The notes under the pieces: generated by a model
What the model was told of the DNA's origin: nothing
Database searches by the model: none
What the model saw: the letters and a program-made list of their open reading frames with translations, nothing else
Translations under genes and position numbers: made by a program
Shown here: piece after piece, positions 666-19,893 of the stretch
Layout of the letters: every line of letters begins with the position of its first letter
How positions within the stretch are numbered: position 1 is the first letter of the stretch
NCBI GenBank assembly: GCA_027069135.1
Contig: JALXFE010000102.1
Span: 1-64,000 of the forward strand
DNA length: 64,000 bases
Source of the DNA: Thermoanaerobaculia bacterium
Lineage (GTDB): Bacteria > Acidobacteriota > Thermoanaerobaculia > Multivoradales > JAHZIX01
Direction: 5' to 3'

Positions 666-977
666 ATGAGTGTCTCAGAAATTCCCTTGAAAGAAGTTAT
701 CCAGGAGCTGCGCGTTCAGCTCGCAGAGGCGATCGAAGCCGGTGATGGAGAGGATCTTAGGTTTGGTATCGAGGATCTGGAGCTGGAGCTCCAAGTGGTC
801 GTGACCAAGGGCGGTGCGGGCAACCTTGAGGTGGAGGGGGGGCTCAAGTTCATGGTGCTCAATGCTCTTGGCAAGGGTGAGGTCAGTGGTTCTTATGAAA
901 AGAGCCATCTTCAGAAGCTCCGTCTAAAGCTCCGCCCAAGGTCCGAATCCGGGCGCAGTACCGATTTGTCCGGCTGA
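666..977 (+). CDS. Trypsin-co-occurring domain (Trypco2-like) protein
   Basis: A 103-aa acidic protein. Its first 95 residues follow the Trypco2 pattern: an amphipathic helix (VIQELRVQLAEAI), the phrase GEDLRFGIEDLELELQV, then a beta-rich half ending KLRLKLRP. Trypco domains are small, of unknown biochemical activity, and occur next to trypsin-like proteases in NTPase-dependent conflict systems, where they are thought to link protease and effector modules. The next gene, 10 bases downstream, is exactly such a protease. It is the first gene of the island operon and its RBS lies in a hairpin. The family call comes from pattern recognition plus context. Confidence 0.75.
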   Translation: MSVSEIPLKEVIQELRVQLAEAIEAGDGEDLRFGIEDLELELQVVVTKGGAGNLEVEGGLKFMVLNALGKGEVSGSYEKSHLQKLRLKLRPRSESGRSTDLSG

Positions 978-987
978 GATCTAGACC

Positions 988-2538
988 ATGGATTCGGAAC
1001 TATTCGGTCGTATTGTGCGGATAGAGGCCAGCTTTGCTGGCTGCGATCCCAAGGTCGGAACCGGTTTTCGGCTGGCGCCGGGCCGGGTTCTGACTTCCCA
1101 ACACGTCGTGGAACGCGAAGGCTCTACGGCAGAGAGCATCTTCGTCAGCCGCGACGCCGCAGGGGATGGCCAGATCGAGAGGAAGCCAGCCACCGTTATT
1201 TGGCGAGGCGAAAGAACTCTCGACCTGGAAGATCATCGGTCTCTCGACGCGGCTCTTCTCGAAGACGAGCTGTCCGCCGAAGGTCTGAAGCCGTTTCAGA
1301 GGTTGGTTCGATTGCCTCAGCCGGGAGGAACGTTCGTAGGTGCCGGATTCGTCAAGGTTAGCGGCTCGAGCCGAGAGCTTCATCGCCCTGACGGAATGGA
1401 GGGGCACTTCGACCCGGTTCAGGACTTTGCAACCAGCGTGAGCCTGCGCATCGAGGGAGCCTTTCCGACCAACAAAGCCGGGGAAGCCGCCTGGGGCGGA
1501 ATCTCTGGCTCCCCCATTTTCATAGGACCCCAAGGAGGCTGCCTCGCTGGTTTCCTCTATGGTGTTGTCCGCAGAACGGTTGGGAGCTTTTCGGACCGCG
1601 TCACAGCGGTGGCTTCGACAGTGCTTTTGCGAAACCCGGAGTTCTGCGCGGCCTTGGGAATCGAAGATCCGCCACCGCCGCACGAGCGGCTTGTTGTGGC
1701 CTCCCGGGATCTCTTGGAGAAAAACCCGCAACTTGCACGCCGCCTGGCCGCGATGGATTCTCCTTGGAAGCAGGCTTGGAAAGATAAAGGGACGGAAGGC
1801 CTCCTCGAAGCCGTTTGCCGGGAGGGGGATATGGAGACCCTCCTCGATGGGCTCCTGGTTCTAGCGAAGGCCAGCAAGTCGGAGCCCGGGGAGCTCGCTT
1901 CCCTGCGGGAATCGGCGGTTCACCTCGTGGCTCTTCTGGCGCATCACGAGTTTTCCCGCCGGGCTGGGGTCGCGGAAACGGCGCCGGGGCGCTTTCGAGT
2001 TCCGGTGACAAGTCTCAACTATGCGGAGGCGGTTTTTGCATCGTCGGTAGGGCTCAAGGCACGCTATGCGAAACCTACATCTGAGTCGAGAGGACGGCAG
2101 AGCCTCGCCGCTCGCGAGCTGGAAGTGCCAACGACTCAACTGGAGAGCGGTCTTGAATCGCGAAATCTTGTGGCGGATCAAGTCGAGGAGATGGCGGCCA
2201 CATTCCTCGAAGGGCTCGATATGGCGCCGTATCTCTACGACGAGCAACAGCAAATCATAAAGGGAGAAGGGCCGGAGCGACGTATTGAGGTCTTGGGTAA
2301 GGCTGTCGAACACAACCTCCGGAGGCTGGCCAAACGGAAGGGACGGCAGCCTTTCCTTTTCCTCACCGCGGAACGCAAGAAGCCAGGAGGATTCGCTACC
2401 GAGGCCTTTCTGAGGCACCTTCAGAACGTGCTTCCCAGCCTGATCTACCTCGACCTCGAGGGGGATGCCCTAGAAGCCCTGGAGCTCGAAGAAAAGCTTC
2501 GGCCCCTTTGGGAAATCCTGGGTATCGAATCAACATAG
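988..2538 (+). CDS. Trypsin-like serine protease of an NTPase conflict system
   Basis: A 516-aa protein. Residues 1-225 form a trypsin fold with an intact triad: His39 (in LTSQHVV), Asp87 (SLDAAL) and Ser173 (GGISGSPIF). There is no signal peptide, so it should act in the cytoplasm. Residues 230-516 are mostly helical and charged, and probably hold an effector-associated or partner-binding region. In known systems such proteases are activated when a sensor/NTPase partner detects an invader, then cleave a target. It lies between Trypco2 and the MoxR ATPase, so a shared complex is likely. The C-terminal part is not assigned to a family. Confidence 0.8.
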   Translation: MDSELFGRIVRIEASFAGCDPKVGTGFRLAPGRVLTSQHVVEREGSTAESIFVSRDAAGDGQIERKPATVIWRGERTLDLEDHRSLDAALLEDELSAEGLKPFQRLVRLPQPGGTFVGAGFVKVSGSSRELHRPDGMEGHFDPVQDFATSVSLRIEGAFPTNKAGEAAWGGISGSPIFIGPQGGCLAGFLYGVVRRTVGSFSDRVTAVASTVLLRNPEFCAALGIEDPPPPHERLVVASRDLLEKNPQLARRLAAMDSPWKQAWKDKGTEGLLEAVCREGDMETLLDGLLVLAKASKSEPGELASLRESAVHLVALLAHHEFSRRAGVAETAPGRFRVPVTSLNYAEAVFASSVGLKARYAKPTSESRGRQSLAARELEVPTTQLESGLESRNLVADQVEEMAATFLEGLDMAPYLYDEQQQIIKGEGPERRIEVLGKAVEHNLRRLAKRKGRQPFLFLTAERKKPGGFATEAFLRHLQNVLPSLIYLDLEGDALEALELEEKLRPLWEILGIEST

Positions 2539-2549
2539 GAGACTTGACG

Positions 2550-3542
2550 ATGGCAACGTGGAAGCTCGAGGCTCTCGAAGTAGAGCTTGAAAACAAAGTT
2601 TCTCCTCCTGGAGGGGGGGCTGCTGGCCCCTCTCGGTCTCGGCATCTCTTTGATCCCAAAGATGTGCTTGCCATCAATGCTTCTCTCGCTTCAGGTCGCC
2701 CGCTCCTGGTGCGCGGAGAGGCGGGAATTGGAAAAAGCCAGTTGGCTCGCGCAGCAGCAACAGGCCTCCGCCGCCGGTTCGTCTCGGCGGCGGTGGATGC
2801 CCGCACGGAAGCCCAGGACTTGCAGTGGACGTTTGATGCCGTGCGCCGCCTGGCGGACGCTCAGCTTCTGGGGTCGACCGGTGCGCGGCTGGATGAGTCT
2901 CAGAAATTGCTGGATGAAAAGCGCTACTTGAGCCCTGGTCCCCTTTGGTGGGGGTTCGATTGGGCAGGGGCAGCGCAGCAAGCGAAACAAGCGAAGACAA
3001 CCTTTCCGGTGGGCGCAGGAGACGCAGAGGCGGCTCCGCGAGGGGTCGTCGTCCTGCTGGATGAAATCGATAAGGGGGACAGCTCGGTGCCCAATGGGCT
3101 GCTGGAGGGTCTCGGGAACCGGCAGTTCACGAGCCCTACGGGGGACCTCGTTCGCTGTGATTCCGTGCCACCGCTGGTGGTCGTCACCACCAACGAAGAA
3201 CGTTCCTTGCCCGATGCCTTTCTGCGGCGCTGCCTGGTGCTTCAGATGGAGGTTCCCGGGAAGGAGGCCGGCCTCCTCAAGTGGCTGAAGAAACGAGGCC
3301 GCGCTCATTTTGGGCAGGAGGAACTAGCCGACGAGATCCTCTCCGAGGCCGCCAAAATGCTTGCTGTGGACCGGGCGGCGGCGCAGCGGAGAGGATTATC
3401 GCCACCAGGAGGTGCGGAATACTTGGATCTTCTCCGAGCACTCTTTTACCTGGGTGGCTCCACCCGCGAAAGAGAGACTCTCTTAGGGGAGATTCGTGAG
3501 TTCACCTTTCAAAAGCACCCGTCCGAGGATGTCGCGGGGTGA
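2550..3542 (+). CDS. MoxR-type AAA+ ATPase
   Basis: A 330-aa AAA+ protein. Walker A is GEAGIGKS at residues 56-63, Walker B is VVLLDEID around 167-174, and a sensor-1 segment VVVTTNEERSLPDAFLRRC follows. I chose ATG 2550 because AGGAGA precedes it at a good distance and it leaves no overlap with the protease; an in-frame start at 2508 would overlap that gene. MoxR ATPases usually work with a vWA-domain partner, and the next gene, overlapping by GTGA, carries a vWA-like region. Likely role: ATP-driven remodelling or priming of the protease/sensor complex (inference). Confidence 0.8.
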   Translation: MATWKLEALEVELENKVSPPGGGAAGPSRSRHLFDPKDVLAINASLASGRPLLVRGEAGIGKSQLARAAATGLRRRFVSAAVDARTEAQDLQWTFDAVRRLADAQLLGSTGARLDESQKLLDEKRYLSPGPLWWGFDWAGAAQQAKQAKTTFPVGAGDAEAAPRGVVVLLDEIDKGDSSVPNGLLEGLGNRQFTSPTGDLVRCDSVPPLVVVTTNEERSLPDAFLRRCLVLQMEVPGKEAGLLKWLKKRGRAHFGQEELADEILSEAAKMLAVDRAAAQRRGLSPPGGAEYLDLLRALFYLGGSTRERETLLGEIREFTFQKHPSEDVAG

Positions 3543-6500
3543 GAAGCTCCCCCCTCTCCGGGCCGCCTCGGGAGGCCGAGGCCTTGCCGGGATCCGCTCC
3601 GTGGCGAGGGGATCTCCTCCGCGCTTGGGTTTTTGGCGACCGGGCGGCCCTCGACGCAGCCGCCGAGCGGCATGGTTTTGGACGCCGGCTCCAGACAGAG
3701 CCTTCCGAGAAAGAGAGCCAGAAGAGCGACGAGATCCGAGACACCAAGACAACGAAGTGCCCGACGGATCTTGCGCGCCGCCGCCCGGCCCCTACGTTCT
3801 TCTGGCAGCCGGTGGCTCGAGATTTTGGCGATGATCACCTCGACGCGGACCCAGAGGATTCCGCGGAGAGACAGCTGCAGCTTAGCGAAGAACATCTCCG
3901 TCCCGGCCCCGACGACAGGGCTCCTCAGCCAGAACCCATCGTGGCCTGGCCGAGGCTTTGGCGAGCTCTGGAGGATCGGCTGAAGAGTCCGAAGCCTCGG
4001 CGTCTCGTCGATGTCGATCGGCTAGTTCGAAGATGGTCCCGGGGTGAGTTGGTGCGGCGCCTGCCGCTACGCTCCGGCCTAGCTCACGCTCGCCTGGCGA
4101 TATTCCTGGATCGCAGTGAGAGATTGAAACCCTTCTGGGGAGACCAAGTATCGGTCACCCGGAGGTTGGCAAGACACCTCGGCCGAGACTCCATCCGGCT
4201 ACTTCCGAGGAGTCTTCTTTCGCAGGGCATCCCGCCTCTTGCAGTCGATGAGAGGCTTCTCATCGTCAGCGACTTGGGACTCTATGGCGGTCCAGAGGCA
4301 TCTAGGCCTTGGGTTCGCCTGGGGCACCGGCTGCAGCGGAACCTAGGGCCGGCAGCGGTCGCTCTGCTGCCTTGTCCGAGGAACCGCTGGGTAGGAGACG
4401 GCCCCCAGCTTTTTTCCTCGCTGGATTGGTCGTCTCCGGACCGGGAAGGTTGCCCCCGGCCTGTCCGCGTCTCCGAGGGCGGGTCGGCGGTCGATCAGGT
4501 TTTGCGTCTGGCATCGGTCGCGCGGCGGCTCGAAACGGGTCTTGTGCGGGAACTGCGCTGCCTGGTTCCGGATGCAGACTTGGGCACGGAGGCGGATCTC
4601 TGGGCGCATCCGGCAGTCCGTTCTGCTCAAGCCATTGGCATTGTGCTCGAAGAAGATCGAGCCCGTTCCCTAAGGCTCGAGATGGCCGACCTACCCACCC
4701 TTGTCCAGGCCCGGGTGGTTTCTCTCTTGGCTCGTTGGCACAAGGGGATCGCTCCGGAGACCTGGGCCACCGAAGTGGCCGACTTGCTTGCCTTGGGGGT
4801 TTCGCAAGAGGTTATCGGTCAGGCGGAAATTGTCCGGTCCAAGGAACTGATGGGGCGCATCGCGAACCTGATTGAAGCCGGTGCAGGCCCTCTTTCGAAG
4901 GACGCTGATGCCTGGTTCGACCGCCTGAGCCTTTGGTGTTCCCGAAGCCTCTGGCGGCATAAAAACTACCGTGGGCTATTGTCCCGGGCTGTCGCTGCGC
5001 GCCAACGACGGAATCCAGAGAGCCCCCTACCTTCAGGGCTCACGCCAGAGATGCTCGGGGGTGAATCCTCGACCCTCCCGGTGCGCCGCTATTCGATCTG
5101 GCACGAAGGCCTCGAATTCAGAGCACTCGCCGCATCTCACAAAGGGTCTGGAAGTTTTGTGGCAGAGGTAGCGGCGCGCCTACCCCGCTTACTTTCCGAC
5201 AGCGGAGAAGAAGCTCCGATGGAAGTTGATCTAGGGAATTCCGAGCTCACATGGCCCGCCCCGGATCCCTCCGGCCCCGTCTTGCTTGTGACGGATGTCG
5301 AGGCGCTCGAGCTAGAACCCTCAGGAATGCCTCTGTGGGCTCGCTGGGCGGGGCGAGATCATTTTGGTTTCTGGGCCGCGTTCGAGGTGGTGGGCGTACG
5401 TCAGCGGCTCCGGTGGATTCCGCCGGGCCGGTTTTGGATGGGATCTCCTCAAGACGAAGCGGGCCGGTTTGAAAGGGAGGGTCCAAGGCACCAGGTCACG
5501 TTGACCGAGGGGTTTTGGATGGGTGAGACTCCCTGTACCCAAGCCCTCTGGGAGGCGGTGAGCACTACCAACCCGAGCCACTTCTCTGGTCCGGAGCATC
5601 CTGTCGAGAAGGTTTCTTGGGACGACTGTCAGACGTTTCTAACCAAGCTCAACGAACGGGTTCCTTTCCTCGAAGCAGAATTACCCACCGAGGCCCGGTG
5701 GGAATATGCCTGCCGGGCTGGGATCGCTGAGGCCACCTGGAAGGGTGATCTCGAGACGGAGGTGGAAAACACCTCAGCGATTTTGGATGAAATCGCTTGG
5801 TATCGAGGCAACAGTGCTGGGCTGGAAAAAGCCGGGCCAGACCGTAGCCTCTTCGCTTGGAGGAAGAGGCCGACTACGGAACCGCGCCGCGGAACCCACC
5901 CTGTTGGCCAGAAGGAACCGAATCCCTGGGGACTCCACGACATGTTGGGGAATGTGTATGAGTGGTGCTCGGACACCTACGGTCCCTACGGAGAGGAAAG
6001 AGCGGTGGATCCGGCGGCGGGTTCGAAGCGCGTGATTCGCGGCGGCTCCTGGAGCTCGTTCGCACGGCGCGTGCGTGCGGCGTACCGCTGCGGGGCCGAG
6101 CCGGGCTACCGCGACGACTACCTGGGCTTCCGCCTGGTCCGAGGTCCGGGGCGCGGAGCGCAGGAAATCGGTCGGGGCTCCGCGGCCGCGGAGGGAGGGA
6201 CGACCCCGCGCCGACGGAGACCACGACCGAGGCGATCTCGCATCGCTTGGGCTAGTGCCTCTGGTGAAGATGGAATCGGCCACTGGGCAGCGTTTGAGGT
6301 AGCAGGCGTCGAGCAGCGTTTGCGGTGGATTGAACCGGGAACGTTCTGGATGGGTTCCCAGGAGACCGAGGCCGGGCGGTGGGGGGACGAGGGCCCTCGC
6401 CATCGGGTTCGATTGACTCGAGGGTTCTGGCTGGGCGAGACCCCCTGTACCCAAGCCCTTTGGCAAGGCGTGATGGGTTCGAACCCAAGCCGCTTTAAGA

Positions 6501-7093
6501 GTCCGAACCGGCCGGTCGAGCGGGTGAGCTGGGAGGATTGTCAGGAGTTTCTGGCGAGGCTCGCTGAGAGCCATCCGCTCCTCAACCTTCGCCTCCCTAC
6601 CGAAGCGGAGTGGGAGTATGCCTGCCGGGCGAAAACGGAAAATGCTACCTGGATGGGGGACCTCAAGATTCTTGGGGAGAACAACGCGCCGTTGCTCGAT
6701 AAGATTGCTTGGTACGGGGGCAACAGCGGCGTGGGCTTCGACCTCGTCGAAGGGGCCGATTCTTCTGGATGGCCCGAGAAGCAGTATCCGCACGAGCGTG
6801 CAGGGACTCGCCCTGTCGGTCAGAAAGCCCCCAATCCGTGGGGACTCCGCGACATGTTGGGGAATGTGTTCGAGTGGTGCTCGGACTGGGTGGGGCCCTA
6901 TTCTGGAGAGCACGCCGAAGGCCCGAAGGGCCCGGAGTCGGGTTCGAGGCGCGTGATTCGCGGCGGCTCCTGGGACTCGGGCGCACAGAGCGTGCGTGCG
7001 GCGTGCCGCTTCGGGGACGAGCCGGGCGCCCGCGGCCACAACCTGGGCTTCCGCCTGGTCCGAGGTCCGGGAGGCGGAGCCGATGAGCGGTAG
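3539..7093 (+). CDS. vWA/SAV_2336-like protein with two FGE-sulfatase (C-type-lectin fold) domains carrying DGR variable repeats
   Basis: An 1184-aa protein starting at a GTG that overlaps the upstream stop (GTGA). Residues 150-600 resemble the SAV_2336 family: a vWA-like strand LAIFLDRSERL near 190 and LLIVSDLGLYGG near 241 suggest a degenerate metal-site domain, the expected partner of MoxR. Two FGE-sulfatase domains follow, at about 605-875 and 905-1180, each with RWIPPG/RWIEPG, FWMGS, ETPCTQALW, LPTEA-WEYACRA, NPWGL-DMLGNV-EWCSD and a closing RGGSW...LGFRLVRGPG. Each closing segment is a DGR variable repeat (VR1, VR2). The cysteine pair of catalytic formylglycine-generating enzymes is missing there, so both domains are probably ligand-binding lectin-like folds. 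Two variable domains in one chain would give a bivalent sensor. Confidence 0.82.
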   Translation: MRSSPLSGPPREAEALPGSAPWRGDLLRAWVFGDRAALDAAAERHGFGRRLQTEPSEKESQKSDEIRDTKTTKCPTDLARRRPAPTFFWQPVARDFGDDHLDADPEDSAERQLQLSEEHLRPGPDDRAPQPEPIVAWPRLWRALEDRLKSPKPRRLVDVDRLVRRWSRGELVRRLPLRSGLAHARLAIFLDRSERLKPFWGDQVSVTRRLARHLGRDSIRLLPRSLLSQGIPPLAVDERLLIVSDLGLYGGPEASRPWVRLGHRLQRNLGPAAVALLPCPRNRWVGDGPQLFSSLDWSSPDREGCPRPVRVSEGGSAVDQVLRLASVARRLETGLVRELRCLVPDADLGTEADLWAHPAVRSAQAIGIVLEEDRARSLRLEMADLPTLVQARVVSLLARWHKGIAPETWATEVADLLALGVSQEVIGQAEIVRSKELMGRIANLIEAGAGPLSKDADAWFDRLSLWCSRSLWRHKNYRGLLSRAVAARQRRNPESPLPSGLTPEMLGGESSTLPVRRYSIWHEGLEFRALAASHKGSGSFVAEVAARLPRLLSDSGEEAPMEVDLGNSELTWPAPDPSGPVLLVTDVEALELEPSGMPLWARWAGRDHFGFWAAFEVVGVRQRLRWIPPGRFWMGSPQDEAGRFEREGPRHQVTLTEGFWMGETPCTQALWEAVSTTNPSHFSGPEHPVEKVSWDDCQTFLTKLNERVPFLEAELPTEARWEYACRAGIAEATWKGDLETEVENTSAILDEIAWYRGNSAGLEKAGPDRSLFAWRKRPTTEPRRGTHPVGQKEPNPWGLHDMLGNVYEWCSDTYGPYGEERAVDPAAGSKRVIRGGSWSSFARRVRAAYRCGAEPGYRDDYLGFRLVRGPGRGAQEIGRGSAAAEGGTTPRRRRPRPRRSRIAWASASGEDGIGHWAAFEVAGVEQRLRWIEPGTFWMGSQETEAGRWGDEGPRHRVRLTRGFWLGETPCTQALWQGVMGSNPSRFKSPNRPVERVSWEDCQEFLARLAESHPLLNLRLPTEAEWEYACRAKTENATWMGDLKILGENNAPLLDKIAWYGGNSGVGFDLVEGADSSGWPEKQYPHERAGTRPVGQKAPNPWGLRDMLGNVFEWCSDWVGPYSGEHAEGPKGPESGSRRVIRGGSWDSGAQSVRAACRFGDEPGARGHNLGFRLVRGPGGGADER
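6020..6150 (+). repeat. DGR variable repeat VR1 (first FGE domain)
   Basis: 131 nt aligning without gaps to the template repeat 8703-8833. By hand I count about 13 differences at template adenines and one non-A difference, the G opposite template C at 8827 near the 3' end. Most hits fall on first and second bases of AAC codons, e.g. AAC to TTC, CGC, TGC, GCC and TAC. It encodes the last strand of the first FGE domain. Confidence 0.95.
6178..6193 (+). repeat. GC-rich perfect palindrome downstream of VR1
   Basis: CTCCGCGG followed by its reverse complement, 28 nt after VR1 and inside the coding linker between the two FGE domains. Related hairpin-forming sequences and a shared GGGAGGGACGACC block follow VR2 and VR3 but not the TR. 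In phage DGRs, GC-rich hairpins just after the VR promote target recognition; the same role is inferred here. Confidence 0.6.
6941..7071 (+). repeat. DGR variable repeat VR2 (second FGE domain)
   Basis: 131 nt matching the template repeat without gaps. About 13 differences sit at template adenines (AAG to AGG; AAC to GAC, GGC, AGC, TTC, GCC, CAC; TAC to TGC; GAC to GGC) and one non-A difference is the shared G at the 3' end. It encodes the last strand of the second FGE domain and ends 22 nt before the stop codon. Confidence 0.95.
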
Positions 7094-7104
7094 CGCAAGG
7101 GAGA

Positions 7105-7126
7105 GGCTCCGCGAGCGAGGGGGAGG
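7105..7126 (+). repeat. GC-rich DGR flank element after VR2
   Basis: A block beginning GGCTCCGCG and running into GGGAGGGACGACC, 12 nt after the stop of the target gene. It corresponds to the elements after VR1 and VR3, although here the stem is imperfect. Probable target-recognition element (inference). Confidence 0.45.
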
Positions 7127-7186
7127 GACGACCCCGCGCCGCTGGAGCCTCGAGAGCTGTGTAGACTCGAGGGAAGAGACGAAGCG

Positions 7187-7684
7187 ATGCGACTGAAATT
7201 CTTCACGGTGCCCGTCTTCGGGCCTGGCGACTCGGAGACGGAACTCAACAGATTCTTGGCTCAGCACCGGATTCTGAAAGTGGACCGCGGACTGGTGACG
7301 GAGTCTTCCGGAGCTTGTTGGGCCGTATGCGTTGGTTATCTCGATAGTGAGATGAAACCAGCCTCCCGAAAGAGGAGTCGGATCGACTATCGAGAGGTGC
7401 TCTCGCCCACGGAGTTCGAGATCTATGCGGACCTTCGGAGGTGGCGCAAGGTGCAGGCGGCCGATGACGGTGTTCCTCCGTATCAAATCTTCACCAACGA
7501 ACAGCTGGCGGCTATCGTCCAGCAAGGAGTTCGGACCGTGGAGTCTTTGACCCTTCTCCCGGGGGTGGGGCCGGCTCGGTTGGCAAAATACGGTCAATCG
7601 GTTCTCGACCAGTTCAGTAGCCTCACGGCCGCTTTGGAAGAGAGCCTGGAAGGACACGATGAAACGGAAGCTGATTCCGCTTGA
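7187..7684 (+). CDS. HRDC-domain DGR accessory protein
   Basis: A 165-aa protein. The first 70 residues (KFFTVPVFGPGDSETELNRF, then a strand-rich stretch ending ACWAVCVGYLD) resemble the N-terminal piece often fused to HRDC in DGR accessory proteins. Residues 88-155 are an HRDC fold: LSPTEFEIYADLRRWRK, PPYQIFTNEQLAAI, LTLLPGVGPARLAKYG. HRDC domains bind nucleic acid, and some DGRs carry such a protein in place of the Avd barrel. It overlaps the RT start by 26 nt, so the two are translationally coupled. Likely role: binding TR RNA or RT during mutagenic cDNA synthesis. Confidence 0.85.
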   Translation: MRLKFFTVPVFGPGDSETELNRFLAQHRILKVDRGLVTESSGACWAVCVGYLDSEMKPASRKRSRIDYREVLSPTEFEIYADLRRWRKVQAADDGVPPYQIFTNEQLAAIVQQGVRTVESLTLLPGVGPARLAKYGQSVLDQFSSLTAALEESLEGHDETEADSA

Positions 7685-8666
7685 AAGCATCGCGGAGCGG
7701 GACCATTTGGCCTGGGCCTTCTGGCGTGCGGCCCAAGGGAAGCGTGGCCGGCCTGAGGTCCAGGCCTTTGCGAAGAATCTCGACGAGAACCTGGATCGCA
7801 TGCAGTCCGAGATTCTGTCTGGGACCGTTGGGGTGGGCCGCATGCACTCGTTTGAGATTCGAGATCCCAAACGCCGAGTGATCCACGCTCCTTGTTTCCG
7901 GGAGAGAGTCCTGCACCATGCACTGATGGCCTACCTGGGGCCGGTTTTCGAGCGTTCGTTGGTTGCGGACACCTTTGCCTGCCTTCCTGGAAGGGGAAGT
8001 TGGGCTGCTGTTTTGAGGGCGCAGCAGCACTCTCGATCCTATGGCTGGTTTCTCAAGATGGATATGCGTTCGTATTTCGCGTCAATCGACTAGAAGATAC
8101 TCTCCTCCCAGATTCGTCGCCGCCTCAAAGGAGAAGGTGTATTGGAGCTTTGCGACCGGGTCCTTTCTGCCTACTCGACATCCGCTGGGCGAGGACTTCC
8201 CATCGGAGCTCTGACCTCTCAGCACTTCGCAAACCTGTACCTGGCCCCTTTTGATCGCTACCTTCTGGAGGAACTCGAAGTCGGTGGACTGGTTCGCTAC
8301 ATGGATGATGTCGTGGTCTGGGGCGAGACGAGTCAGCGGCTCCGGGACGTCCTTCGGGCCTGCGAGGAATTCGTAGAGGAAGGTCTTCGCCTCGAGATCA
8401 AACCAAATTGGCAGATTCAGCGAACTTTCCGGGGGTTGACCCTCTGCGGATTCCGGGTTTTTTCCCGGAAGTTGGCGCTCTCTCAGCGCCGCCGGCGGCG
8501 TTATCGGCAGGCCCGGGTGAGCTGGGAAAGCGCTTACCTCTCTGGCGCCATTGATGCTCGGACTCTCCAGGAGGCCTACGCAGGGGTTCTCGCCATCACC
8601 ACTGGAGCGCAGTCCCTGGCCTGGCGTCGCGGCGAATTGGCACGCCGACCGGCAGTCGAGGTTTGA
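7659..8666 (+). pseudogene. DGR reverse transcriptase interrupted by one in-frame TAG (codon 145)
   Basis: A single frame of 336 codons with one internal stop, TAG 8091-8093. Before it: RT motifs including RDPKRRVIHAP and the motif-A segment FLKMDMRSYFASID (catalytic Asp135). After it, in the same frame: GLPIGALTSQHFANLYLAPFD, which carries the SQ signature specific to DGR-type RTs, and RYMDD with the two catalytic Asp (216-217), then a thumb region. No frameshift is present and both halves are well conserved. A CAG-to-TAG change would explain it. It is either a recent nonsense mutation, a sequence error, or a stop that is read through. A TTG at 8142 could start a second fragment but would lack motif A. 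Confidence 0.88.
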
Positions 8667-8702
8667 GCATGATAGAAAACCCATGGTGGTCAGGATCAAC
8701 AA

Positions 8703-8833
8703 GGTTCGAAGCGCGTGATTCGCGGCGGCTCCTGGAACTCGAACGCACAGAACGTGCGTGCGGCGTACCGCAACGGGAACGAGCCGGGCAACCGCGACAA
8801 CAACCTGGGCTTCCGCCTGGTCCGAGCTCCGGG
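8703..8833 (+). repeat. DGR template repeat (TR)
   Basis: 131-nt non-coding template 36 nt after the RT stop. It is the common ancestor-like copy of VR1, VR2 and VR3. It contains eight AAC codons in the VR frame, the usual design that allows wide amino-acid change without stop codons. Read in that frame it spells RGGSWNSNAQNVRAAYR and so on to GFRLVRAPG. The C at 8827, where all VRs have G, marks the IMH*/IMH difference that protects the template from being overwritten. The flank 8834-8973 contains no gene I can support. Confidence 0.95.
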
Positions 8834-8973
8834 GACGCTGGAAGCTTCCCGGACCCGATTCTGGACCCGTCCGGCTGCGGGACTTGCGGTCGGCGAATCC
8901 TTGGGCTCCGGTGTGTAAGTAGGGTTGCAGAAGCCTCCGCGAACGCTCGCCGGCGCCTGCTTGTTTTCCTCCG

Positions 8974-9891
8974 ATGAGCCGCCAAGCAAAACCCTCCAGT
9001 CACGGCGAAACCTACTGGCATCCACTCGTCAACCTCAACCCCCCCGCTTGGGCTTGCGCTTGGGGGGAAGATCCCTGGGGCGTGTTTGCGACCTTTCTGG
9101 TCGGCGATGTCGAGCAAGAAATGCGATGGATCCCGGCGGGAACCTTTTGGATGGGCTCTCCTCCAGGAGAGGCGGGGAGGGACGCAAACGAAGATCGGCA
9201 CCTGGTGACCCTGACGAAGGGGTTTTGGATGGCACAGACGCCTTGTACCCAAGATCTTTGGCTGGAGGTCATGGGCCAAAACCCGAGTAGGTTTGTTTCC
9301 GGGCGTCGCCCCGTAGAGACCGTGAGTTGGGAGGATTGCCAGGGTTTCCTCGAACGTCTCAGCGAGCGTTGCCCAGGCCTCGAACCTCGGCTGCCGACCG
9401 AGGCGCAATGGGAGCACGCTTGCCGGGCAGGCGTCGATTCGGCCACCTGGCCGGGAGACCTCAAAATCCTTGGAGTCCGCGATGCTCCCCTCTTGGACCC
9501 GATTGCCTGGTACGGTGGAAACAGTGGCGAGGGTTTTGATCTTGAGAAAGGTTGGGATTCTTCTAGTTGGCCTGAGAAGCAGTATTCCCATAAGAAGACC
9601 GGGACTCGGCTGGTGGCTCTCAAGGAGCCGAATCCGTGGGGTCTTCTTGACATCCTGGGAAATGTCTACGAGTGGTGCTCGGACTGGAAGGGGCCCTATC
9701 CTGCAGAGCACGTCGAAGACCCGAAGGGCCCGGATTCGGGTTCGTTGCGCGTGTTTCGCGGCGGCTCCTGGAACTCGAACGCACAGGACGTGCGTGCGGC
9801 GTGCCGCGACGGGCACGGGCCGGGCGTCCGCGGCAGTTACCTGGGCTTCCGCCTGGTCCGAGGTCCGGGAAGCGCAGCCCAGGAGCGGTAG
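8974..9891 (+). CDS. Stand-alone FGE-sulfatase (C-type-lectin fold) protein, second DGR target
   Basis: A 305-aa protein made almost entirely of one FGE domain: MRWIPAGTFWMGSP, QTPCTQDLWLEVMG, LPTEAQWEHACRAG, NPWGLLDILGNVYEWCSDW and the closing variable repeat. No signal peptide is visible. It is closely similar to the two FGE domains of the vWA fusion protein. The catalytic cysteine segment of formylglycine-generating enzymes is absent, so a binding rather than an enzymatic role is expected. It lies just behind the TR, the usual place for a DGR target. It probably supplies an extra diversified recognition subunit. No clear Shine-Dalgarno precedes ATG 8974, so the start is less certain than the frame. 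Confidence 0.85.
   Translation: MSRQAKPSSHGETYWHPLVNLNPPAWACAWGEDPWGVFATFLVGDVEQEMRWIPAGTFWMGSPPGEAGRDANEDRHLVTLTKGFWMAQTPCTQDLWLEVMGQNPSRFVSGRRPVETVSWEDCQGFLERLSERCPGLEPRLPTEAQWEHACRAGVDSATWPGDLKILGVRDAPLLDPIAWYGGNSGEGFDLEKGWDSSSWPEKQYSHKKTGTRLVALKEPNPWGLLDILGNVYEWCSDWKGPYPAEHVEDPKGPDSGSLRVFRGGSWNSNAQDVRAACRDGHGPGVRGSYLGFRLVRGPGSAAQER
9739..9869 (+). repeat. DGR variable repeat VR3
   Basis: 131 nt matching the template repeat without gaps. About 12 differences fall at template adenines (e.g. AAG to TTG, ATT to TTT, AAC to GTC, CAC and TAC). Two do not: a C-to-T in an AGT codon and the shared 3' G. The repeat ends 19 nt before the stop codon. Confidence 0.94.
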
Positions 9892-10419: not shown

Positions 10420-12678
10420 ATGGAGAGTACCCACAACCAGCCCGTCCCCGTCGCGCGAAAGATCTTGTGCTATCTGGCATTCCTGCTACTGGCCGTCGGC
10501 TTGGGGCAGGTCACGGTCCAGGCAGCGCAGGAAACCCGCCTCCCGAAGCTCGAGCTTGCCACCCAACCGGCCGACCAACTGATTGGAAAGACAGGCCTTT
10601 CCGACCAGGGCACGATTCCCCTCTTGAAGGTTATTGAAGGCACGCCGGAGAGGGCTTTGCTCGAGGCGGAGCCCCTCGGCAAGGAGATCGAGGAACGGGC
10701 TCAAGCATTGGCCAACGGCACCCTTCAAGTGCGAGCGGAGACCGCGAAGGTCGATGATCTCTACCTCAAATGGGCGAGCGCTAACGCCAAGCAGGGGGGA
10801 GATCACAATCTCAGGCTCGTTCTCGGTACGATCCGCGGCCTGATGCCCGCCGGCGAGGCGACCGGCAAGGCGTGGGTCGACTTGGTCGACGCCAAGGTGC
10901 GGATCGAGATCGAGAGCTTGCGGGTTGGGGTCGACCTCTGGTTGGTCGACAACCAGAGTGGCCACGGCAGAAGCGCGCTTCCGGAGGCCGGTGACCGCTA
11001 TTTCCGGTTGGGCCACCTCGAACCCCTAGGCGACGTTGCGGAGTTTTCGAAGAACCTTGACGGCGGTTTTTTCGATCGCTTCGAGCTCGATCTCTTGGTG
11101 GTCACCCCGGCGGGCATTCATCCCAAGGACGAGATGATGCTGCTCGGGACCCCATCGACCTTCCAGCGTCGGTTTACCCGCGAACGGCGTGGTGTCTCTT
11201 CGGCTCCGGCAGGTGCCGGTGGCTTTTCTGACCCCCGGGTCGCTCTCGGCCTGGTCAGCCAGCAGGTCTTGGAAGGGGGCGATCTTTTCTTCCGGGGCAC
11301 CTTCGAAGGCAACGGCCGCAGCTGCGGAACCTGCCATCCGCCGGCCTTCAATCTGGTGATCGATCCCGACTTCATCGCCCGTCAGCGCCGGATCAACCCC
11401 AACGATCCTCTCTTCATCGCCGATCCGGGTCGTCCGAACGGTGTGCCGCTGGAGATTCCTGACATCCTGGAACGCTTCGCTCTCATTTTTGAGAATGTCG
11501 ACGGCTTCGAGGATCCGGGCAATAAGTTCATGATGCGCAGCGTGCCGCACAATATTTCGAGTGCTCTTTCCGTCCTGCCGCCGGGTGATAGCGACGGTGA
11601 CGGCGTGCTCGACGACGGCACCACCAACGACGTTTTCGCCTTCCGCACCGGATGGTCCGGAGACGGTGCGCCGTCGCCGGGCGGCCTGCGAGCTTTTCCT
11701 CTTGGAGCTGTGGTCCAGCACTACACTCGGGATTTCAATACTCGCTTTCCGAGCCCGCAGAGCTTCCGGTTGCAGACCGAAGCGGAGCTGGACCGGTTGG
11801 AGGCCTTTCTTCTCTCGACGGGCCGGCTCAACGAGTTGGACCTCTCCGTGGCGGGCTTCACCGATAGCCGAGCCGAACGCGGCCGGCAGCTCTTCACCAC
11901 CGGTGTCGGGGGAGCCAAATGCTTTGGCTGCCACAATAACGCTGGCGGTAACTCGGCCTTCGGTGGCAATCGCAATTTCAACACCGGCATCGAGACGGTG
12001 CGCATCGCTGAGCTCAATGCTCGTGGCATCCCCTGCGATGGCGGTTTCGGAGGCCAGGGGAACGTCCCGCCCAACAATGTCGGCTGCGCACCGGGCTCGG
12101 CCGGTGGTCGAGGCAACGGCAGCTTCAACGTGATGCCTCTGGCCGAAGCGGCAGATACGCCTCCTTTTTTCCACACCAACGCGTTCAACACGATCGAGGA
12201 GGCTGTCGGGTTCTACTCGACGCCGACCTTTGCCAACTCTCAGGGCGGCGCTGTGATCAACTCGGTCTTCGGTGAGCCCATCAACCTGACCGCCCAGCAG
12301 ACCAATGACGTGGCGGCCTTCTTGCGGGTCCTCAACTCGTCCTTCAACCTCCAGCAGTCCCTGCAACGCATCGAGGCGGCGCAGCAGATCGGCGGCGTCT
12401 TCGGCCTGTCGCAGATCCAGCTGACCAACAATCTGCTGATTCTGGCCAACAACGAGTTGGTGGATGCTTTCTTCGACTTGCGCGACCGTGGCCTTAACGG
12501 TGCCTCCCAGTCGGATATCTTCAACTCGATCTTTTTTCTTCGGCAGGTTCTCAGGAGCGGCAACCCTGCGATCCGTGCCTTTAACGCCGAGCTCGCACGA
12601 GCCTTTGCCGCCCGGGCGGACAGCCGGCTCGGCTCGGGGATCGCCTTCGACATCGGCGAGGGCAATCTGCTCTTCTAG
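10420..12678 (+). CDS. Secreted di-heme cytochrome c / peroxidase-like protein
   Basis: A 752-aa exported protein; the signal peptide (CYLAFLLLAVGLGQVTVQA) ends near residue 36. Two heme-c motifs are present, CGTCH at about 302-306 and CFGCH at about 501-505. The layout (heme 1, then FMMRSVPHNI, then RGRQLFTTGVGGAKCFGCH, then PPFFHTNAFNTIEEAVGFY) resembles MauG/CcpA-type di-heme cytochrome c peroxidases, but with a long N-terminal extension of some 270 residues of unknown fold. A well-placed AAGGAGG precedes the ATG. It should act in the periplasm as an electron-transfer or peroxidase protein; the substrate is unknown. Confidence 0.75.
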   Translation: MESTHNQPVPVARKILCYLAFLLLAVGLGQVTVQAAQETRLPKLELATQPADQLIGKTGLSDQGTIPLLKVIEGTPERALLEAEPLGKEIEERAQALANGTLQVRAETAKVDDLYLKWASANAKQGGDHNLRLVLGTIRGLMPAGEATGKAWVDLVDAKVRIEIESLRVGVDLWLVDNQSGHGRSALPEAGDRYFRLGHLEPLGDVAEFSKNLDGGFFDRFELDLLVVTPAGIHPKDEMMLLGTPSTFQRRFTRERRGVSSAPAGAGGFSDPRVALGLVSQQVLEGGDLFFRGTFEGNGRSCGTCHPPAFNLVIDPDFIARQRRINPNDPLFIADPGRPNGVPLEIPDILERFALIFENVDGFEDPGNKFMMRSVPHNISSALSVLPPGDSDGDGVLDDGTTNDVFAFRTGWSGDGAPSPGGLRAFPLGAVVQHYTRDFNTRFPSPQSFRLQTEAELDRLEAFLLSTGRLNELDLSVAGFTDSRAERGRQLFTTGVGGAKCFGCHNNAGGNSAFGGNRNFNTGIETVRIAELNARGIPCDGGFGGQGNVPPNNVGCAPGSAGGRGNGSFNVMPLAEAADTPPFFHTNAFNTIEEAVGFYSTPTFANSQGGAVINSVFGEPINLTAQQTNDVAAFLRVLNSSFNLQQSLQRIEAAQQIGGVFGLSQIQLTNNLLILANNELVDAFFDLRDRGLNGASQSDIFNSIFFLRQVLRSGNPAIRAFNAELARAFAARADSRLGSGIAFDIGEGNLLF

Positions 12679-14319: not shown

Positions 14320-14922
14320 ATGTCCTCGCCCAGCACCAGCGTTACCCAATTGATCATCGCCCATAGAAATGGGGATCAACAAGCCTTTGATCGATTGGTC
14401 TCGGTCCTATATGACGACCTGCGCCGCCTGGCCCATGGACAGCTTCGACGTCTGAAATCCTGGGAAGGCCTCAACACGACGGCGCTCGTTCATGAGGCCT
14501 ACGTCAAGCTGGTCGCCAAGGAGGACCGCGGTTGGGAGAGCGAAGGCCACTTCCTCGCCACGTCGGCAAAGGCCATGCGCCACATCCTGGTGGACGCGGC
14601 CCGTCGACGTCTGGCCGCCAAACACGGCGGCGGCCAGATCCCGGAAACCCTGGACGACCGCCTCTGCGGGGAAAACTCTCACGCTGCCGAGGTGCTTTCG
14701 GTGCACGAGGCCTTGGACCAGCTGCGGGAGATCGATCAGCGCATGTGTCAGGTCGTCGAATGCCGTTTCTTCGCCGGCTACTCGGTAGAAGAGGCGGCCA
14801 AAGCTCTGGGCATCTCCCAGCGCACCCTGCACCGTGACTGGCTGCGGGCCCGAGCTTGGTTGAGACGTTGGCTGGCCGCGGCCGACGGCGGCGAGCCGAG
14901 AGAAGTGGAAGAGGAGGCCTGA
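14320..14922 (+). CDS. ECF-type RNA polymerase sigma factor (Sig-70_X6 class)
   Basis: A 200-aa sigma factor with region 2 (FDRLVSVLYDDLRRLAHGQL, then TTALVHEAYVKL) and region 4 (MCQVVECRFFAGYSVEEAAKALGISQRTLHRDWLRARAWL). The DLRRLAHGQLRR/HFLATSAKAMRHILVDAARRR pattern is that of the ECF group common in Acidobacteria and Planctomycetes and typically paired with a TPR kinase. The kinase gene overlaps it by TGATG, so the two are translated together. Kinase-controlled sigma activity is a likely mode; target promoters are unknown. Confidence 0.88.
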   Translation: MSSPSTSVTQLIIAHRNGDQQAFDRLVSVLYDDLRRLAHGQLRRLKSWEGLNTTALVHEAYVKLVAKEDRGWESEGHFLATSAKAMRHILVDAARRRLAAKHGGGQIPETLDDRLCGENSHAAEVLSVHEALDQLREIDQRMCQVVECRFFAGYSVEEAAKALGISQRTLHRDWLRARAWLRRWLAAADGGEPREVEEEA

Positions 14923-17699
14923 TGGCCCCTTCTAAAGGCCCCCTGCCCTTCGACAGCCGAGGAGCGAAACCCACCGGCGAACGCAACCGGCGCATGGACG
15001 CTCTCTTCGCTGAAGCCCTCGACCTACCTCCGAGGGACAGAGAACAGTTCCTACTCCGCGCCTGTGGTGAAGACGACGGGTTGCGCCGTGACATCGAAGA
15101 GCTCCTGGCTGCAAGCGAGCTCGACGATACCTTCTTGGAGCCCGGCGGAGCCGCCCATCGTGGACTCCTCAGCACTCTGATCGCCCCAGTGGAGAGCCCG
15201 GTCGGCCAGACCCTCGGCCGCTACCGGGTGATCGAGGAGATCGGCCGCGGCGGCATGGGGGTGGTTTATCTGGCTCAAAGGGCGGACGGCCAATTCGAAC
15301 AGCGGGTCGCCTTGAAACTCCTGCTGGTCCACTCCGACCCGGCTGCCGTCGAGCGCTTTAGCCGCGAACGCCAGATTCTTGCCAACCTCGAGCATCCCCG
15401 TATCGCCCGCCTCATCGACGGTGGGCTCACCGATTCCGGTCAACCCTTCCTGGTCATGGAGTATGTCGCCGGCCTACCCATCGACCGGTTCTGCCGCCAA
15501 CACCGGCTCGGTCTCGAGCAGCGCATCACCCTCTTGACGGAAGTCTGCGACGCGGTGGAAGCCGCCCACCGGCAGCTGATCGTCCATCGGGACCTCAAAC
15601 CGTCGAATATTCTCGTGCGCGACGATGGCGAGCTTCGCCTCCTCGATTTTGGCATCGCCAAGCTCATGGATCCCGGGCCCGGGGGGCAGACCCAAACTCT
15701 CGAGCGCTTTCTGACTCCCCAATACGCCAGCCCGGAGCAGGTGCGGGGAGGCCGCATCACGGTCGCATCCGACGTCTACCAGCTCGGCTTGCTCGCCTTC
15801 GAGCTGTTCAGCGGTCGCCGTCCCTACAACCTGGCCGGCTTGAGCGCCGCCGAAGCTGAACGAAAAGTCTGTGACGAGGTCCCCCGGCGGCCGAGCACCG
15901 CAAGCCGGTCCAGATCCGACGAGCAAATGGTCTCGGAGGACGGCTATCGGCCGGACCCGAGCCTGCTGACGGGGGATCTGGACCTGATCCTCCTCAAGGC
16001 CCTGCATAAGGATCCGGAACGGCGTTACGGCTCGGCGGAGGCCTTTCGCCTCGACCTGCAGCGATTTCTTGCCGGCTTGCCGATCTCCGCCCGCCCGGAT
16101 GTCTGGACCTATCGTCTGCGGAAGTTCGTCGGTCGCCATCGGTGGGCGATCACTGCCGGCTTGGCGACCCTGACGATGGTGACCGTCCTGGTCGCCGGCT
16201 TTGTTTGGCGGCTGGCGGAGGAACGGGACCAGACCCACCTCGAGGCCCTGCGGGCAGAGGAACGGCGGGCGGAGACCGAAGAGGTCACCTCCTTCTTGAT
16301 CGGTCTATTCGAGGCCTCGACACCCTTTTCTTCCAATTTTTCCCGGTCGTCCCCGGGGAGTGTGGGAGCGGATACGACGGCGCGGGAGCTCCTGGCTCAG
16401 GGGCGGCAAAGACTGGACGGCGCCTTTCCGGACCAGCCCCTGGTCCATGCTCGCCTGCTCCAGGCGGTGGGCCGGATCTACCGAAATCTCGAGCTCTTCG
16501 ACGAAGCCGACCCCCTCCTGACGGAGGCTCTGGACCTGCGGCGGGAGGTGGCCGGCGACCAGGGGCCGGACCTTGCCGAGAGCTTCGCCGACGTCGGATC
16601 CGTGCTCGCTCAGACCGGGCGCGAGCAGGAAGCTGAGGACTACTACCGCGAGAGTCTGGCCCGATTCGTCGCCCAGTACGGGGAGCACCACCGCGAGGTC
16701 GCCCGGGCCCAAGGGAACCTCGCTAACCTGCTGCATCGTTTAGGAAAATTCGAGGAAAGCGAGAGCCTTCTTACCCTAGCCGTCGAGACTTCGCAGACCC
16801 TGGAGAGCCCCGACGAGCTGCGTTCCGCCTGGTTGATGAACATGCTTGCGCGCTCTCGCCTGCAGAAAGGGGAGGCCCCGGAAGCCCACCAGCTCTTCGA
16901 GCGTGCGTTGGAAATCCGTCGAAGAATCCTCGGCCCGGACAACTATTGGGTTTCTCGCTCCCTCGTCTCGGTGGCCCTGAGCCATTATCACCAGGGCCGG
17001 TACCAGCAAGCGATTCCCCTCTATCGTGAGGCCCTGCGGATTCTCGAGCTACACCTGGGGCCCGACAGCACGCGGGTCGCTTCCGTTCTCGAGAACCTTG
17101 CTCACAGCCTCCATTTCGCGGGCCAGGGGGAGCAGACCCAGGCGATGATGGAACGGGCTCTCGAGATTCACGTAGCGGCTCAAGGGGAAGAATCCGCCAA
17201 CGCGATGCGGCTCCGCTACAACCTGGCCCACCTTCGGCTCCTCCTCGGCGACGCTGCCGAGGCAGAGAAGGAGTTTCGGCGTCTGCAGCCGATCCAGAAG
17301 CGGGTCTTCGATGGGCCGACAGAACAGAGCGCCATGACCTGGAACGGCCTCGGTGAGGCTCTGGTGGCCCAAGGTCGGGCGGACGGGGTCGAAGATTACT
17401 TTCGACGCTGCGAAGCGCAGCTGCTGTCCCTCTTCGGGCCCAAGACCAAGAAACTGGCGACACCCCTACTCAATCGTGGGCGCTTAGCCCGCCGCCGGGA
17501 TGATCTCGCGACGGCCGAACCCCTCTTTCGCAGGGCCTACGACATCCTTCAGGCGAACCTGAGCCCCGAAGCCGATCTGCTTGGTAGGGTCCGCCTCGAA
17601 TTAGCTGAGCTGCTTCGCGAGATGGGCAAGAGCGACGAGGCCGCCGTCCTTGCCGCGCAGGCCCCCTCGTCCCCGGCCGCTCCGCTCCCGGCACGCTGA
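14922..17699 (+). CDS. Membrane Ser/Thr protein kinase with C-terminal TPR repeats
   Basis: A 925-aa protein. Residues 95-390 are a Hanks-type kinase: glycine loop IGRGGMGVVYLAQR, VALKLL lysine, VHRDLKPSNIL catalytic loop and LLDFGIAKL. One transmembrane helix lies at about 408-428 (WAITAGLATLTMVTVLVAGF), putting the kinase in the cytoplasm and the C-terminal half outside. Residues 460-900 are tetratricopeptide-type helices with LLTEALDLRREVAG, LFERALEIRRRILGPDNYWV and LYREALRILELHLGPDS. The start at 14922 overlaps the sigma-factor stop. Probable signal transducer acting with the sigma factor. Confidence 0.9.
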   Translation: MAPSKGPLPFDSRGAKPTGERNRRMDALFAEALDLPPRDREQFLLRACGEDDGLRRDIEELLAASELDDTFLEPGGAAHRGLLSTLIAPVESPVGQTLGRYRVIEEIGRGGMGVVYLAQRADGQFEQRVALKLLLVHSDPAAVERFSRERQILANLEHPRIARLIDGGLTDSGQPFLVMEYVAGLPIDRFCRQHRLGLEQRITLLTEVCDAVEAAHRQLIVHRDLKPSNILVRDDGELRLLDFGIAKLMDPGPGGQTQTLERFLTPQYASPEQVRGGRITVASDVYQLGLLAFELFSGRRPYNLAGLSAAEAERKVCDEVPRRPSTASRSRSDEQMVSEDGYRPDPSLLTGDLDLILLKALHKDPERRYGSAEAFRLDLQRFLAGLPISARPDVWTYRLRKFVGRHRWAITAGLATLTMVTVLVAGFVWRLAEERDQTHLEALRAEERRAETEEVTSFLIGLFEASTPFSSNFSRSSPGSVGADTTARELLAQGRQRLDGAFPDQPLVHARLLQAVGRIYRNLELFDEADPLLTEALDLRREVAGDQGPDLAESFADVGSVLAQTGREQEAEDYYRESLARFVAQYGEHHREVARAQGNLANLLHRLGKFEESESLLTLAVETSQTLESPDELRSAWLMNMLARSRLQKGEAPEAHQLFERALEIRRRILGPDNYWVSRSLVSVALSHYHQGRYQQAIPLYREALRILELHLGPDSTRVASVLENLAHSLHFAGQGEQTQAMMERALEIHVAAQGEESANAMRLRYNLAHLRLLLGDAAEAEKEFRRLQPIQKRVFDGPTEQSAMTWNGLGEALVAQGRADGVEDYFRRCEAQLLSLFGPKTKKLATPLLNRGRLARRRDDLATAEPLFRRAYDILQANLSPEADLLGRVRLELAELLREMGKSDEAAVLAAQAPSSPAAPLPAR

Positions 17700-18114: not shown

Positions 18115-19893
18115 ATGAAACCGAATATTTTCCCCCTTTGTGCTTCCACCAAACCTCATTCCATATCCTCCGGAGTCAGGACTGCCACCGGCGTCTTGGC
18201 TGCAGGAGCTCTCGCGTTTGTGCTCGCCTTGGCGTTCTTGGTTCCGGTCACGGCGAATGCCGCTGAGATCCTGCTACGCCACGGGGACGGCAGCCCAGCC
18301 TGGGTGGAAGGCGCGCTGGGCCCCGTCGCCCTTCCGCCAATCCCGGAGGAACTTTCCGACGACTACTACGAAGAGGCTTTCCTCGCCCTCAACGAAGGGC
18401 TCCAAGCCGCTTTGGTCGAGAATTTCGGCACCACCGGCGGGGAGCAGCTGGATCTCGTATCTATGGCCGTCCGCCACGTCGGCCGTGTCGATGTCGGTAC
18501 CCTGGCCTTCCGCCAGACCATGTCCGGCCTGCCGGTGATCGGCAGCGGTTTTCGGGTTCGCCTAGACCTGGACGCCGGTCAGATCCTGGCCATTCACGGC
18601 CGGGTCTACCCACGGAGCGAAGCCTATTCGCTCCGTGCCATCTCCCAGATTCCCTTTGAAGACGCTTTGGCCCGCACCCTGACTGAGCTGCGAGCCGAGG
18701 CGGACCTTCTCGGCGAGCCGGAGCTGGTCTTCGTCGGTGGCCAGACCGAGTTGGTACTGGCCTACCGGGTTCTCGCTTCACTGAGCACCAGCACGGCACC
18801 GGAGTTTCTTTCCATCGCCGCCACCGACGGTCGTTTTCTTGGCGCCGAGCCGACCCAGCTCACGGCCCCCCCCACGGGGCCTGGTAATTCCGGTGGTTCC
18901 GGCCCTACTTGGCCGACGATCAATTACAAACAGAGCTTTCGCTCCCATGACGCCTCCGCGTCCTCAGCCTTGCCCCCGTACGGCCCTCTTCTCCTGTGTT
19001 CCACCAACGTCTATTTCCCCATCCCCGGATTTCTCTTGCTATCGAACGCCCCGTGTACACCGGATGGTTCGGTCGCTCGAGCCCATGACCACGCGATCAA
19101 GACCTACCGCTTCTTCCGAGAGAAGGAGGGCTGGAAATCCTACGATGGCCTCAGCTCGCCCCTCATCTCATTCGCCAACGAGTTGATACAAGACTCCCAA
19201 GGCCAATGGAAGCCCATGGTCAACGCCTATTGGGATTCGCAGAAAAAGGAGATGCATTACGGCGACGGCGACGGAAGCCTGCTCTTCGACCTTACGTTGG
19301 GCTTCGACGTCACCGCCCACGAAATCTCCCACGGCATTACCCAAGCTCGTAATGGTCTGATCTACAGCAAGGAGTCCGGGGCTTTGAACGAGGCCTTCTC
19401 CGACATCTTCGCCGCCGCCGCTGAGGCCTGGAAAGACGGTGGCATCACCGCTGATACCTTCCTCATCGGCGAAGACGTCGCCGGACCCTTGTTGGGGCAG
19501 GCCTTGCGCTATATGCACAATCCAGGTCTGGATGGCTTCTCTCCCGACTACTACCCCGACCGGCTCTACCCGGATCCCGGTTGCGTTCCCACGGGCGGTT
19601 CCGCGGGCAATGATTATTGCGGTGTGCACCACAACAGCGGCATCGCCAATCTGGCCTTCTACCTGCTGGTCAGCGGTGGCCAGCACCCTCAGGGCAAGAC
19701 GACGGTCGTCGTGCCGGGCATCGGAATCGACAAGGCCCGGGCGATCTTCTTCGAGGCCCACGGCCAGTTGAGCCCGGTGTCAAATTTCCATGCCGTGAGA
19801 TTGGCAACAGAGCAAGCCGCCGCGAATCTCTACGACCCCGCCACCGTCGATGCGGTCAGCAAATGCTGGAGCGCCGTCGGTGTCAATCCCTGA
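18115..19893 (+). CDS. Secreted M4-family (thermolysin-like) zinc metalloprotease
   Basis: A 592-aa exported prepro-protease. The signal segment (VLAAGALAFVLALAFLVPV) spans about residues 26-44, and a propeptide runs to about 265. The catalytic domain has HEISH (residues 402-406), the downstream ligand motif GALNEAFSDIFAA, and the C-terminal DYCGVHHNSGIANLAFYLL that carries the catalytic-site histidine. I chose ATG 18115 because GGAGA precedes it and the signal peptide starts soon after; an in-frame ATG at 18022 lies in non-conserved sequence. A strong terminator follows. Role: extracellular protein degradation. Confidence 0.9.
   Translation: MKPNIFPLCASTKPHSISSGVRTATGVLAAGALAFVLALAFLVPVTANAAEILLRHGDGSPAWVEGALGPVALPPIPEELSDDYYEEAFLALNEGLQAALVENFGTTGGEQLDLVSMAVRHVGRVDVGTLAFRQTMSGLPVIGSGFRVRLDLDAGQILAIHGRVYPRSEAYSLRAISQIPFEDALARTLTELRAEADLLGEPELVFVGGQTELVLAYRVLASLSTSTAPEFLSIAATDGRFLGAEPTQLTAPPTGPGNSGGSGPTWPTINYKQSFRSHDASASSALPPYGPLLLCSTNVYFPIPGFLLLSNAPCTPDGSVARAHDHAIKTYRFFREKEGWKSYDGLSSPLISFANELIQDSQGQWKPMVNAYWDSQKKEMHYGDGDGSLLFDLTLGFDVTAHEISHGITQARNGLIYSKESGALNEAFSDIFAAAAEAWKDGGITADTFLIGEDVAGPLLGQALRYMHNPGLDGFSPDYYPDRLYPDPGCVPTGGSAGNDYCGVHHNSGIANLAFYLLVSGGQHPQGKTTVVVPGIGIDKARAIFFEAHGQLSPVSNFHAVRLATEQAAANLYDPATVDAVSKCWSAVGVNP

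Follow-up and report, generated by a model that had tools for sequence, protein, structure and literature searches.

In a window of 64,000 nt (the whole stretch of DNA that was analysed) we found a DGR of the HRDC/FGE type that appears complete but whose only reverse transcriptase (RT) gene seems to have recently gained a nonsense codon. We think it most likely that the RT was recently and genuinely inactivated by an ordinary nonsense mutation. In that case translation would end at codon 145, ahead of the SQ and YMDD motifs, and no polymerase would be made; wherever the TAG allele is carried, the three VRs would stay fixed as they last were, and the population may also include cells whose allele is intact. 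The features of the locus are:

3539-7093, + strand: target protein of 1184 aa with two FGE-sulfatase domains (VR1, VR2)
6020-6143, + strand: VR1, inside ORF 3539-7093; 13 A-site and 0 other differences from the TR
6941-7064, + strand: VR2, at the C-terminal end of ORF 3539-7093; 13 A-site and 0 other differences from the TR
7187-7684, + strand: accessory protein with an HRDC domain (Pfam HRDC, E=6.7e-15), overlapping the start of the RT
7659-8666, + strand: DGR reverse transcriptase frame with one interruption (from ORF reading, the alignment of relatives, the PHROG 1423 match and a structure model)
8091-8093, + strand: in-frame TAG, codon 145, the first residue of a modelled helix (145-155) behind motif A
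8129-8144, + strand: AGGAG (8129-8133) 8 nt before an in-frame TTG (8142), a candidate restart for the C-terminal piece, probably due to chance
8703-8826, + strand: template repeat (TR) core, 124 nt, 25 A
8974-9891, + strand: target protein with one FGE-sulfatase domain (VR3)
9739-9862, + strand: VR3, in ORF 8974-9891; 13 A-site differences from the TR and 1 other

The RT frame ends at a TGA (8664-8666) and contains a single internal stop, the TAG at 8091-8093 (codon 145 of 335), which is real in this assembly. Our ORF reading hence agrees with an earlier note on this DNA, where the frame from 7659 was described as open to 8666 save for that codon. The same note saw intact motifs on either side and no frameshift. 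The profile search confirmed the lack of a frameshift: the part before the stop matches positions 103-244 of PHROG 1423 (reverse transcriptase) and the part after it positions 247-420, and since these are consecutive there is neither a frameshift nor a missing piece. Motif A (D135) precedes the stop, while IGALTSQ and YMDD follow it, both conforming to the (I/V/L)GxxxSQ and YxDD motifs of DGR RTs. A chance ORF can be discarded, since the frame aligns nearly end to end with 11 relatives (41-57% identity). The chain obtained by reading through the stop folds as an RT in a structure model (mean pLDDT 86.7) whose best match in the PDB is the DGR RT 8ub7 (TM 0.84), also the top PDB match by sequence, and residue 145 is predicted to open a helix (145-155) after motif A. 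PADLOC matched the RT pieces to general RT models only, adding nothing. Termination at codon 145 removes both the SQ and the YMDD motifs, and from this order of motifs the truncated RT is presumably inactive. With its RT frame interrupted instead of intact, the locus is classed as an inactivated DGR and not as a working one.

Stop codon aside, the locus is an otherwise complete DGR of the HRDC/FGE type, with an accessory gene, a TR, three VRs and FGE-type targets. The accessory gene of a DGR can be of the Avd or the HRDC kind; here it is the HRDC gene at 7187-7684, a type described in PMC4891356. Differences between the TR and the VRs fall on template adenines, as is proper of DGRs: over the three VRs together, 39 of the 75 template-A positions are changed, against 1 of the 297 others. 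In each VR 13 of the 25 A positions have changed, and the other 99 positions show 0, 0 and 1 changes (the 124-nt core was set by us, and the flanks outside it diverge freely). ORF 3539-7093 has a separate VR in each of its two FGE domains; comparable targets with VRs in tandem have been reported from Marichromatium and Thiohalocapsa (PMC3521204, PMC10907252). A-biased TR/VR pairs are also found near an uninterrupted RT in 8 of the 11 closest relatives; a simple scan found none in the other three (L047, L049 and L050). Locus L042 has two VRs before the RT and one after it, the same layout as here, and that of the nearest relatives is similar. At E<=0.001 there is no second RT match in the genome (7.17 Mb, 626 contigs, 97.45% complete).

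The residue that the TAG replaced can be approached through the relatives. The stop column is His in all 11 of the closest ones, encoded by CAT or CAC. Among 90 distinct RT sequences (from the 103 loci, of 114 non-own loci, whose alignment spans residues 130-200) it is H in 70, R in 8, Q in 5, K in 2, and N, T, Y, P or W in one each. Going from a His codon to TAG takes two substitutions, so the single CAG-to-TAG change put forward in the earlier note is not a likely path. The need for an intermediate is also a point against nonsense inactivation; the route from His to TAG perhaps passed through a tolerated Gln or Tyr. Relatives with further stops or frameshifts, which the earlier note held would prove simple decay, did not appear: none of the 90 distinct sequences has a stop in the aligned stretch, and none is more than 57% identical to the RT. 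No closer relative was found in genome_contigs, in viral_contigs, or in the genomes of the order, class and phylum, and G001, the sole genome of the same genus in the relatives list, has a distant RT match only. Plasmids gave no DNA match, and the exact pattern around the stop was unmatched in viral_contigs. An internal TGA is present in 1 of the 49 other RT matches of one listing (G042:C251:19491-19931), near the C-terminal end of the L039 RT, whose stretch in the RT alignment is stop-free; two further listings, with 21 and 13 non-own matches, contained none with a stop.

Several comparisons suggest that the stop is of recent origin. Of the 61 alignment columns in which the other 11 rows all agree, the RT departs from the shared residue in 2 (the stop itself and L152I); the other 11 sequences, treated likewise, depart in 0-5 of 59-64. 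The two parts of the frame match L012 about equally well, with 86 of 143 codons identical before the stop and 105 of 190 after it, so the post-stop part shows no further decay. The stop aside, neither side of it shows excess decay. The almost pure A-site changes in the VRs imply that the RT worked until recently, and mutagenic retrohoming is recent relative to ordinary substitution. Low decay and near-pure A-site differences together place any loss recently. We also tried the neighbouring gene 10420-12678 for dating by synteny, which was of no use (matches in two of the three genomes G001-G003, at 40-41% identity).

The two traits by which recently inactivated DGRs have been recognised are an RT truncated by nonsense, frameshift or insertion, and VR changes at A sites only (PMC3521204, Fig. 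4). Here the first is present, provided that the assembly is right, and the second holds in VR1 and VR2 (0/99 other sites) and nearly so in VR3 (1/99). In the cases shown in that work (2012, Fig. 4A-C), the nonsense-broken RTs of Ruminococcus gnavus and others, with A-only VRs, were attributed to very recent inactivation or sequencing error. Our locus shares with them the premature RT stop, the (near-)A-only VR changes and the same argument for recency; compared with these cases from other organisms, it stands apart by the position of its TAG right behind motif A, by its HRDC accessory gene and by the number of its VRs, which is three; one of these has one non-A change.

An error of assembly or base calling, or a consensus of mixed strains, would leave the real (or majority) gene intact and the DGR working. 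The assembly is indeed fragmented (626 contigs, 2.4% estimated contamination), recently used VRs suit a working DGR, and intact and interrupted RT alleles within one population are reported in PMC10907252. However, none of the 70 ABC and 78 kinase domain matches in the genome has an internal stop, so that errors creating stops must be rare. Moreover, no single-base error leads from a His codon to TAG. Either two bases of the codon would have to be wrong, or it would have to encode another residue than His, which is the case for 20 of the 90 distinct relatives but for 0 of the 11 closest. His ancestry, two steps away from TAG, makes a lone miscalled base less likely. We consider this reading unlikely, if the most serious of the alternatives, and the TAG is probably a real change. 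Amber readthrough would instead yield a little full-length RT and a low hypermutation rate. It fits a frame that is otherwise intact and VRs that were recently rewritten, and Gln and Tyr, the residues that amber readthrough can insert, occupy the stop column in 5 and 1 of the 90 distinct relatives. Amber recoding would entail in-frame TAGs in other conserved genes and loss of RF1, yet internal stops are found in 0/148 of the above domain matches and RF1 is encoded (prfA is present); it could also entail that relatives share the stop or that an RNA structure follows it, but the stop is absent from all 90 distinct relatives, and the RNA behind it folds worse than shuffles (z=+1.75), with no stable structure. 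In 856,841 sampled bases, 173 of 566 gene-end-like stops are TAG. The 43 tRNAs that ARAGORN found in the window and in stretches with Rfam RF00005 matches include no CUA tRNA, though this list is incomplete, as Phe, Ile and Ala-TGC are missing too. A codon-model scan for interrupted frames gave, at its loosest threshold (the first ones were too strict), 36 stops flanked by coding signal before and after, and 8 of them lack an in-frame start within 12 codons (TGA 5, TAG 2, TAA 1), so there is no excess of TAG among interrupted frames, although the scan is blind to genes with atypical codon usage, since the RT itself fell below threshold upstream of its own stop. Low basal readthrough is compatible with all of these tests and nothing points to it; we consider readthrough a highly improbable explanation.

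A split RT is the least probable of the alternatives. In it, translation would restart at TTG 8142 behind the AGGAG, giving two pieces (144 + 174 aa) that assemble. The AGGAG stands 8 nt ahead of this in-frame TTG, itself 48 nt past the stop, and an AGGAG at -16 to -5 is seen for just 83 of the 8704 in-frame start codons that lie within long ORFs (44 of 8704 for longer forms). This is a mild coincidence. There are several downstream start codons and each could match by chance. Both pieces would lack residues 145-161 and with them the modelled helix 145-155 behind motif A, and an interruption at this place is seen in 0 of the 90 distinct relatives. A broader idea, in which the amber codon acts as a translational throttle, through either rare readthrough or the TTG 8142 restart, leaving a trace of RT and a very low hypermutation rate in a defence sensor, we regard as very improbable. 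From the three options raised in the earlier note, recent loss fits best; nothing speaks positively for a readthrough throttle, and several tests speak against one. As a separate observation, a TGA near 18420 on the minus strand of contig C588 (L178) lies between two stretches with coding signal, lacks a start over 32 codons, and may mark another interrupted gene.

Amber codons in DGR RT genes have a precedent in seven RTs of Zeta crAss-like phages, for which amber suppression is described (2025, PMC12386605). The likeness lies in the in-frame amber in a DGR RT gene. Those phages, however, have code changes, with suppressor tRNAs in many, whereas here the stop is isolated and TAG is used as a stop. 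A search of open-licence PMC papers found no cellular genome in which a DGR RT is read through; if readthrough were proved here, it would be a new control of a hypermutator. Nonsense inactivation of a DGR RT is an already published kind of event, of which this locus is most likely a new instance. It would add a well-characterised DGR caught shortly after the loss of its RT, in a genome with no second RT match, and it shows how recent death can be weighed against readthrough through relatives, TR/VR differences and stop usage.

Another comparison is offered by the degenerate DGR loci of Thiohalocapsa PB-PSB1, where some RTs are broken while intact alleles coexist (2024, PMC10907252). By analogy, coexisting intact and interrupted RT alleles would be a natural reading here too. 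The breaks described there are transposons or a deletion, in contrast to the nonsense codon found here, and some targets there are served in trans, whereas we found no second RT. The surroundings are alike as well: in Thiohalocapsa, DGR targets with tandem C-type-lectin/FGE domains adjoin MoxR ATPase, trypsin-like peptidase and Trypco genes (PMC10907252).

Upstream of the DGR target, the region 666-3542 holds Trypco2, trypsin-like and MoxR-like AAA genes that resemble a ternary conflict system. The Trypco2 match is strong (E=5.4e-19) and that to AAA_5 is above its cut-off, while the Trypsin_2 match is weak (23.3 bits, under its cut-off of 27.6); neither vWA nor VMAP was matched at E<=0.001 in the domain search of the locus proteins. 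In its pair of FGE domains, the 1184-aa target is similar to the tandem targets that PMC7159879 and PMC10907252 describe for ternary conflict systems. GC3 is 0.63-0.68 in the DGR and conflict-system genes (666-9891) vs 0.76-0.77 in the downstream genes 10420-12678 and 14856-17699, a contrast in base composition suggesting that the whole 666-9891 cluster may have been gained horizontally.
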